Source of the DNA: Halobellus sp. MBLA0158
Lineage (GTDB): Archaea > Halobacteriota > Halobacteria > Halobacteriales > Haloferacaceae
Reading direction: 5' to 3'
Assembly: GCF_041477585.1 (NCBI RefSeq)
Contig: NZ_JBGNYA010000001.1
Coordinates: 1,860,001-1,924,000 of the forward strand
Length of the DNA: 64,000 nucleotides
Part shown: one piece after another, positions 5,857 to 57,912 of the stretch
Numbering within the stretch: position 1 is the first letter of the stretch
Layout: each line of letters starts with the position of its first letter
The notes under the pieces: generated by a model
What the model saw: only the letters and a program-made list of their open reading frames with translations
The model's database searches: none
What the model was told of the DNA's origin: nothing
Translations under genes and position numbers: made by a program

Positions 5857-7329
<1,473 letters not shown>

Positions 7330-55208: not shown

Positions 55209-56675
55209 TCAGTACGACTTCGCGAAGTACGCCGTCTCCTCGGCGTCGTCGTCGCAGATCGCACACGACTCGCCGCCGTGGATCTCCGCGTCCTCGTCGT
55301 TCAGCGGGACCATCACGATCTCGGCGGCGATCTGGTCTTTGATCTCGCCTTCGCAGGCCTCGTCGCCGCACCACGGCGCCTTGACGTAGCCGCCGTGCTG
55401 GCCGATCGTCCCGAGGATCTCCGCCCTGTCGTCGGCTTCTCGGACGTTCGATTCGAGGTTCTCCTCGGCCGCCGCATAGAGCTTCGCGTAGACCTCGTCG
55501 AAGTGCTCCTCGACGGTGTCGACGATATCTTCGCGACTCTCTTCTTCAGACTCCCCGTCGGGCCGGTGGACGAGCGTGACGGTCCCGTCGTCGGCCTCGT
55601 TGGGGCCGATCTCCATCCGGACGGGGACGCCCTTCAGCTCCCACTCGTTGAACTTGAAGCCCGGATTCCGCTCGTCGCGGTCGTCGAGTTCGACGCGGAT
55701 GCCGGCGTCTTCGAGGTCTGCGGCGATGTCCTCGGCGTACTCCAGCACGTCGTCTTTCGTGTCGGCCTGCCAGATCGGGACGATCACGATCTGCTCGGGC
55801 GCGATCGCGGGCGGCAGGACGAGCCCCTGATCGTCGGAGTGAGTCATAATCAGCGCGCCGAGCGCCCGCCAGGAGAGCCCCCACGAGGTCGTGTGGGCTA
55901 TCTGTTCGTCCTCGTCCTCGTCGGTGTAGGTGATGTCGAACGCCTCCGCGAAGGAGGTTCCGAGGTAGTGGGAGGTCGCGCCCTGGACGGACTTGCCGTC
56001 GGGCATCAGCGCCTCCACGGTGGTGGTCGTGTCGGCGCCGGGGAATTTGTCGTGTTCGGGCTTCGCGCCGCGGAGGACGGGCATCGCGAGCAGGTCCTCG
56101 TAGGTCTCCTCGTACTGGTCGAGCCGACGGGTGGTCTCCTCCCACGCGTCCTCGCGGGTGGCGTGGGCGGTGTGGCCCTCCTGCCAGAGGAACTCCTTCG
56201 TCCGGAAGAACGGCTTCGTCTCCGTGGCTTCCCAGCGGACGACAGAGACCCACTGATTCACGCGGAGCGGGAGGTCGCGGTGGCTGCGGACCCACTGGGA
56301 GATGTACGGCGTGATGATCGACTCGGAAGTCGGCCGGACCGCAAGGGGCTCCTCTAACTCCTCTTTGCCGGCGCGGTCGACCCACGCGACCTCGGGGTCG
56401 AAGCCCTCGACGATGTCCTTTTCCTGTTCGAGGTAGCTCTCGGGGATGAACATCGGGAAGTAGGCGTTCTGGACGCCCGTGTCCTTGAACAGGGAGTCCA
56501 AGTGGCCCTGGAGGCGCTCCCAGAGTTCGTAGGCCCGGGGGCGCGTGACGATGAAGCCGCTCATCCCCTCGGGCGCGTAGTTCGCGAGGTCGGCCTTCTG
56601 GACGACCTCGGCGTACCACTCGCCCGTGTTGTACTCTTTCGACTCGGTGATGCCGAGTTCCTGCTCGTCGCTCAT
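55209..56675 (-). CDS. proS: Prolyl-tRNA synthetase
   Basis: The 488-residue product is a class II synthetase of the archaeal/eukaryotic type. TRPRAYELWERLQGHLD near 40-56, the motif 2 region RPTSESIITPYI near 112-123 followed by NQWVSVVRWE, the motif 3 region near 345-350, and a C-terminal zinc-binding-like part with CGDEACEG and CAICDDDAEE near 440-475. It attaches proline to tRNA-Pro. The start MSDEQELGI at 56675 gives the normal length; the open frame continues upstream to 56930 but that part reads across the divergent HicB promoter. Confidence 0.96.
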   Translation of the reverse strand: MSDEQELGITESKEYNTGEWYAEVVQKADLANYAPEGMSGFIVTRPRAYELWERLQGHLDSLFKDTGVQNAYFPMFIPESYLEQEKDIVEGFDPEVAWVDRAGKEELEEPLAVRPTSESIITPYISQWVRSHRDLPLRVNQWVSVVRWEATETKPFFRTKEFLWQEGHTAHATREDAWEETTRRLDQYEETYEDLLAMPVLRGAKPEHDKFPGADTTTTVEALMPDGKSVQGATSHYLGTSFAEAFDITYTDEDEDEQIAHTTSWGLSWRALGALIMTHSDDQGLVLPPAIAPEQIVIVPIWQADTKDDVLEYAEDIAADLEDAGIRVELDDRDERNPGFKFNEWELKGVPVRMEIGPNEADDGTVTLVHRPDGESEEESREDIVDTVEEHFDEVYAKLYAAAEENLESNVREADDRAEILGTIGQHGGYVKAPWCGDEACEGEIKDQIAAEIVMVPLNDEDAEIHGGESCAICDDDAEETAYFAKSY

Positions 56676-56796: not shown

Positions 56797-57081
56797 ATGA
56801 GCGCCGATGTCGACGGGTCCGACAAAGGGGACGACGGTGGTCCGGTCAACATAACCCTGAAACTGGGCGAGGAGACCGATCTGTGGATCGCCCGCGACGA
56901 GGACACCGGCATGACGTCGCAGGGGCCCACCCGCCAGGCCGCGCTGTCGAATCTGGACGAGGCCGTCGCGGGCTACAAAGGGGCGGGCGACGCCCCGACG
57001 GAGGCGGAACTCAGGGAGTTCGGGATCGATCCCGACGAGAACACCGCGGGCGATCTCGAATCGTCCGACGTGTTCCAGTAG
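56797..57081 (+). CDS. hicB: HicB-type antitoxin
   Basis: The 94-residue product shows the partial RNase H-like fold of HicB: NITLKLGEETDLWIARDEDTGMTSQGPTRQAALSNLDEAVAGY near 17-60 with the conserved STNGDS-like turn replaced by TSQGPTRQ, then an acidic tail ending in SDVFQ. A Shine-Dalgarno-like GGAG lies just before the ATG. It neutralises HicA by binding its active face. It stands 6 bp before the hicA remnant on the same strand. Confidence 0.85.
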   Translation: MSADVDGSDKGDDGGPVNITLKLGEETDLWIARDEDTGMTSQGPTRQAALSNLDEAVAGYKGAGDAPTEAELREFGIDPDENTAGDLESSDVFQ

Positions 57082-57087
57082 GGCCGT

Positions 57088-57342
57088 ATGGATCGCGGCC
57101 CATTCTCCGGTCGCGACGTCGTGAAGGTGATGGTGAACAGCGGGATCTATCGGTGGGACCGGACGAACGGTGACCACGCGATCCTTCGGTAGGAGCCACC
57201 CGATGAACACGACGCAGACGCGCGGACCGTCCCGGTGCCACTGCACGACGAGCTCGACACTGGAACGCTCCGGAGCATCGCCGACCAGGCGGGCGCGAAG
57301 AGTTTCGAGGAGTTCTGCCGCTGGATCGATCGGAACCGATAG
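57088..57342 (+). pseudogene. hicA: HicA-type toxin gene with an in-frame nonsense codon
   Basis: Read from ATG 57088, the frame gives MDRGPFSGRDVVKVMVNSGI and then RWDRTNGDHAILR, the N-terminal HicA part with the catalytic His in GDHAIL. A TAG at 57190-57192 (codon 35) stops it. The same frame continues without any further stop to TAG 57340-57342: EPPDEHDADARTVPVPLHDE, then LDTGTLRSIADQAGAKSFEE and FCRWIDRNR, the normal C-terminal half. The full reading is 84 residues plus stop, a normal HicA length. In relatives Trp is common at the stop position (HWEPP-type), so a single TGG-to-TAG change explains it. The toxin is probably dead, while the antitoxin is intact. Confidence 0.85.
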
Positions 57343-57346
57343 CTTA

Positions 57347-57423
57347 TACTGTCGGACACAACTGTTTCAAGATATTCGCCGCCCCGGGCGGCGAAATTCT
57401 TCACAGACTTGTGTCCGACAGTA
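57347..57423. mobile_element. 77-bp MITE-like element with TTA target duplication
   Basis: Terminal inverted repeats TACTGTCGGACACAA at 57347-57361 and 57409-57423 are perfect. The inside is nearly palindromic too, with a 9-bp stem TTCGCCGCC/GGCGGCGAA around a 3-nt loop at 57375-57395. TTA stands on both sides (57344-57346 and 57424-57426), a 3-bp duplication of the TNA type made by some IS5-family transposases. The right TTA is also the stop codon (TAA) of the next minus-strand gene. It has no coding capacity. It could also serve as a two-way terminator between convergent genes. Confidence 0.75.
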
Positions 57424-57912
57424 TTAGAGCTCTCCTGAATCGACCGCAAACGGACTCTCGCCCGCCTGCCAGTCCCACCCCGGCAGCCGCGTCTGGAAGC
57501 CCGCGGCGAGCGCGGCGTCGAGGTCGTCGGCGCCCGCCCCGCCGTCGGTGTGCGTCGCCACGTCGGCGTAGTGGAACGTCGCCTGCGCGAGCAGCGACAG
57601 CGGGCTCCCGCCCGCGATCGTCGCCGCCAATTCTCGGCCGAGCACCTCGTCGACGACGAACCCCGGGTAGTCGCCTTCGACGTCCAGCTCCCGTAGAATG
57701 GCGACGTAGCCGGCGACGTTGACCGCGACGTCGCCGTCGGCGAAGACCGCCCGGACTTCGTCGCGGTACTGGTCGGACGAGACGGTCCCGACCTCCGTCT
57801 CGAACTCCTCGCCGAGTCGCCGCCGCGTCTCGTTGATCAGGGGGACGACGACGTCGCTCCTGTCGCGCACCCACGCGGCCTCCGCGGCGACCCGGTCTGC
57901 GGTGAGCCTCAT
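57424..57912 (-). CDS. Uncharacterised haloarchaeal protein
   Basis: The 162-residue product is not recognised. It is mostly helical and acidic: ADRVAAEAAWVRDRSDVVVPLINETRRRLGEEFE near 5-38, a central DEVLGRELAATIAGGSPLSLLAQATFHYADVATH near 92-125, and an end with GWDWQAGESPFAV. There is no signal peptide or membrane helix. The start at 57912 is the first ATG giving this compact protein; the frame is open further upstream. Its stop codon is the TTA target duplication of the MITE-like element, so the insertion sits exactly at its end. Confidence 0.65.
   Translation of the reverse strand: MRLTADRVAAEAAWVRDRSDVVVPLINETRRRLGEEFETEVGTVSSDQYRDEVRAVFADGDVAVNVAGYVAILRELDVEGDYPGFVVDEVLGRELAATIAGGSPLSLLAQATFHYADVATHTDGGAGADDLDAALAAGFQTRLPGWDWQAGESPFAVDSGEL

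Follow-up and report, generated by a model that had tools for sequence, protein, structure and literature searches.

A 77-bp palindromic MITE of a haloarchaeal family that probably targets CTNAG and has promoter-like ends

To our knowledge, archaeal MITEs have been little studied. Those of Haloquadratum walsbyi share their ends with known transposons, and the small mobile repeats (SMRs) of the same species lack target duplications (PMC3119063). Outside the archaea, the Correia elements of Neisseria and MITEAba12 are small inverted-repeat MITEs with promoters able to act on neighboring genes (PMC10969869). Among insertion sequences, the IS1031 group of the IS5 family prefers TNA as its target and duplicates 3 bp (PMC12016507). 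For haloarchaeal promoters, a consensus of CGAAA plus TTWT has been proposed (PMC4983044).

The window analyzed here is a 64,000-nt stretch of the genome of Halobellus sp. MBLA0158, and the features of the locus under study are given in Table 1. The original prediction described a near-palindrome of 77 bp with perfect 15-bp terminal inverted repeats (TIRs) and TTA on both sides, the right TTA being the stop codon of the minus-strand neighbor, and each part of this description was borne out. Together with flanking sequence, the arms were 83% complementary across 42 nt, and the single-strand fold had a predicted energy of −49.6 kcal/mol (z = −12.4), with 0 of 200 shuffled sequences equally stable. 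The element is thus short, noncoding, and bounded by TIRs that match at 15 of 15 bp, as is expected of a MITE. A search of Rfam with the element returned no relevant match.

Table 1. Features of the MITE locus, in coordinates of the window
Feature	Coordinates	Strand	Remarks
Prolyl-tRNA synthetase gene (proS)	55209..56675	-	Adjoins the 57424-57912 gene in MITE-free relatives
HicB-like antitoxin gene (DUF7387)	56797..57081	+	PF24113
HicA toxin gene	57088..57342	+	PF07927; interrupted by in-frame TAG at 57190-57192
Promoter look-alike CCGACAGTATAAG	57343..57355	-	Perfect consensus; antisense into hicA; expected start ~57318; putative activity
Left TTA target duplication	57344..57346	.	Within target CTTAG
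77-bp palindromic MITE	57347..57423	.	Inspection, repeat count, copies, fold
Left TIR TACTGTCGGACACAA	57347..57361	+	15 bp
Right TIR TTGTGTCCGACAGTA	57409..57423	-	Perfect reverse complement of left TIR
Promoter look-alike CCGACAGTATTAG	57415..57427	+	Antisense into minus-strand gene; expected start ~57452; putative activity
Right TTA target duplication	57424..57426	.	TAA stop codon of minus-strand gene
Conserved haloarchaeal gene	57424..57912	-	Stop codon within right target duplication

The toxin gene preceding the insertion is indeed broken, as had been noted from the letters alone: with its internal stop masked as X, HicA scored 45.7 bits against its Pfam profile. Its terminal TAG (57340-57342) is followed one base later by the left TTA. 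The minus-strand gene had no match in Pfam, and its function is unknown. In seven other Halobellus species this gene directly adjoins the proS upstream region, both the MITE and the HicB/HicA cassette being absent from the orthologous locus, and an exact single-event empty site was not seen among them. The cassette (56797-57342) is an insertion, and the genes that flank it are direct neighbors in those seven species. As judged from the present arrangement, the preinsertion site can be read as CTTAG lying between two convergent stop codons.

A search for TIR pairs 77 bp apart was carried out on the own genome, where the exact 15-mer occurred six times, forming three pairs at this distance. These three copies were ~98% identical and lay at unrelated sites. 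Relatives with roughly 70 to 94% identity were found in other Halobellus members, and further ones in Haloarcula, Halomicrobium, and Natribaculum plasmids and in other haloarchaea. A survey yielded 63 distinct copies, mostly from Halobellus and about 60 of them from relatives, with lengths of 76 to 80 bp. Identical TNA was present on both sides in 52 of the 63 (TCA in 25, TGA in 22, TTA in 4, and TAA in 1), often within CTNAG. The end TNATACTGTYGG was in excess of a reversed control in relatives (for example, 196 versus 0 in G007 and 126 versus 2 in G003), and G010 had 121 end sites versus 2 in the control. At 8 of 21 pairs both sides had changed in such a way that the stem was preserved, and its sequence differed between subfamilies. 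Multiple copies, conserved ends, and matched TNA duplications are together the signature of a MITE, so the MITE-like insertion with TTA duplication that had been predicted stands, and the window element is a genuine MITE of a haloarchaeal family. In some Halobellus genomes this family has been amplified to about a hundred copies with no visible transposase.

Longer elements of ~100 to 216 bp with the same TACTGTCGG ends were observed at L068 (8279-8446), L069 (4326-4541), L466, L477, and L509, as well as in G211 (113 bp) and G109 (166 bp), and are further size classes of the family. L069 also contained, near position 6935, an isolated and perfect palindrome, ATACTGTCGGACAGTAT, built around a single central base; it represents either two fused MITE ends or an operator-like site. 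Viral contigs scanned for the family gave scattered single matches without partners, and a search of phage records gave none.

As a nonautonomous element, the MITE would be moved in trans by a cut-and-paste transposase recognizing TACTGTYGG ends, targeting CTNAG, and duplicating TNA. Whichever base stands for N, TNA reads as a stop codon on one of the two strands (TAA and TGA directly, TTA and TCA by reverse complement), which accounts for insertion at stop codons, and since the duplicated TNA restores the stop codon, landing there is harmless. A stop-coincident open reading frame of at least 150 codons was more frequent among the copies (15 of 63) than among control frames (26 of 252), and in two Halomicrobium plasmids copies were located at the stop of a gene. 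Insertion at the present CTTAG, between the stops of the HicA gene and the convergent conserved gene, would have disrupted neither, and the suggestion that the broken toxin had made the site tolerant is not needed. The TNA target explains the position on a stop codon better than does tolerance arising from a broken HicA, and the family accounts neatly for elements sitting on stop codons.

The first clue to a second property of the ends came from the end scan, which showed single, MITE-free CCGACAGTATNAG sites that often lay ~30 bp ahead of the start codons of native genes, for example, an aldo/keto reductase gene and a probable photolyase gene, both named by sequence reading. The arrangement CCGACAGTATAAG-N14-26-ATG was found in 95 of 391 Halobacteria genomes, compared with about four matches for the reversed control. 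After removal of MITE cases and orthologues, the ATG followed CCGACAGTATAAG by 23 to 26 nt in all 53 distinct genes, 26 of them at a gap of 24, and A/T was enriched at the expected position of the −10 element. The block was specific, the NNN of CCGNNNGTATAAG being ACA in 22 of 49 matches. The motif thus keeps a fixed spacing to the start codons of unrelated genes, and we conclude from its sequence context that CCGACAGTATAAG is probably a genuine haloarchaeal core promoter; the window copy faces no ATG so spaced. The YRNCCGACAGTATAAG/CCGACAGTATAAG variant stands apart from the published CGAAA/TTWT consensus (PMC4983044) and possibly reflects a distinct TFB specificity.

Across the class Halobacteria, base-specific YRNCCGACAGTATAAG was seen with an ATG 23 to 26 nt downstream before many unrelated genes (L157-L186 and L419-L478). 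In the own genome, MITE-free boxes at about −30 occur at L055, L057, L062, and L063, whose genes look like an aldo/keto reductase, a threonine dehydratase-like protein, a coiled-coil protein, and a photolyase. The first two were seen again in G002 and the third in G003 and G007. A photolyase-type regulon for the single CCGACAGTATNAG sites was considered and rejected, the genes being diverse. A fossil-MITE origin for all such promoters was not supported in general, as the likeness ends ~4 bases upstream of the motif.

Read outward and together with the duplicated target, the MITE end is CCGACAGTATNAG. Its terminal 9 bases plus T-AG match the promoter motif, with the best fit when N is A, and 9 to 12 bases are common to TIR and motif, possibly by chance or through a common constraint. 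Should the ends of the MITE in the window be active, they would at most give rise to two outward antisense transcripts. Of 90 inspected promoters of this kind, 5 (L420, L421, L442, L459, and L463) were recognizable MITE copies of 78 bp or elements whose ends were strongly MITE-like, the gap to the ATG being 24 to 26. TAA was present on both sides in L421 and L463, the duplication in L421 being perfect (CTAA...TAAG), and L463 has lost the palindromic character of its interior. Downstream of L459 lies pspAB, with a profile match beginning at residue 1. The gene downstream of L420 matched DUF5789, that of L421 gave a weak sensor-domain match, and a Pfam search with those of L442 and L463 gave none. 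From their spacing, these few copies elsewhere probably serve as promoters of the genes that they precede. Among the surveyed copies, which are mostly from Halobellus, only 1 to 2 of 126 ends stood at promoter spacing before an open reading frame, without enrichment, so promoter delivery is occasional and not what most copies do. TATCAG/TATGAG ends were also considered as promoters and rejected: the five near an ATG face no recognized genes, the open reading frames being of 19 to 27 aa in four cases and 132 aa in one. In two species (L181 and L182, ~1440-1545), the promoter box of a DUF1810 gene consists of a decayed MITE arm that, as judged by eye, is ~82% similar to a copy from Halobellus limi; this gene appears truncated in L182.

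The reading that we prefer, with a probability of about 0.8, is that the element is a nonautonomous haloarchaeal MITE which targets CTNAG and has promoter-like ends, with a transposase acting in trans and transcription from the ends both postulated. A MITE copy could then carry a ready-made promoter with it. It is conceivable, although we would not favor it, that this is a plain MITE whose likeness to a promoter is a functionless coincidence: hardly any of the surveyed copies has promoter spacing, and ends with C or G as N face no recognizable genes when near an ATG. However, the match to the motif, which takes in the terminal 9 bases and T-AG, has base-level specificity and the −30 spacing, and five copies stand at exactly this spacing upstream of genes, of which three have some support from Pfam. 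A stronger proposal, which we put forward only tentatively, is that the inverted repeats are mobile core promoters of Halobacteria, in which insertion into CTNAG completes the TATA box; selection would have kept copies at −30 of genes, N would have mutated to A, and part of the CCGACAGTATAAG class may descend from MITE ends. The base-specific match offers a testable explanation of how archaeal promoters could be distributed by small mobile elements.

The original prediction also held that the palindrome might act as a bidirectional terminator, and a native terminator hairpin between convergent genes would suit both its position between two convergent stop codons and its very stable fold. We regard this as very unlikely. 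Archaeal transcripts are terminated by means of U-tracts and FttA and not of hairpins, and we know of no archaeon that terminates at simple hairpins. The window element has no T-run or terminator match, its ends resemble core promoters instead, it is absent from seven congeneric species, and copies of the family occur in many contexts, each with its own target duplications.

No autonomous parent was found in end-pair scans of seven genomes (G002, G003, G007, G109, G211, G289, and G310) and four plasmids, where only short, MITE-like spacings occurred among the matches listed. The transposase loci with PF01609 that were examined in five genomes had ends that differ from those of the MITE family. 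L114 was considered as a related element on the basis of an 11-mer and rejected, one match falling within its coding region. Orphan MITEs are known. As for the IS5-family parent first suggested, only the duplication of TNA (3 bp) is in keeping with the IS1031 group, and these scans revealed no autonomous element bearing the MITE ends. The MITE family shares with that group the TNA target and the 3-bp duplication, whereas a published example of the group ends in GAACCTGTC and the MITE family, which has no linked transposase, ends in TACTGTCGG (PMC12016507). Because of this difference in ends, the family was not filed in the IS1031 group.

Compared by description, the family resembles the MITEs and SMRs of H. 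walsbyi in being short, transposase free, haloarchaeal, and present in many copies with inverted repeats, but it differs from those MITEs in having no known parent and from the SMRs in having TNA duplications (PMC3119063). A REP- or PATE-like palindrome mobilized by a transposase of the Y1 type (IS200/IS605) is scarcely credible, for although the element is small and palindromic and PATEs are common in Haloquadratum (PMC3119063), the family has true TIRs and 3-bp target duplications, neither of which PATEs possess, and the duplications already contradict this reading. In carrying promoter sequences, Correia elements and MITEAba12 also resemble the family. Their promoters are of the bacterial sigma-70 type, experimentally shown for Correia, whereas those of the haloarchaeal family are putative and of the archaeal BRE/TATA type, and only in the latter does the target duplication supply part of the putative TATA box.
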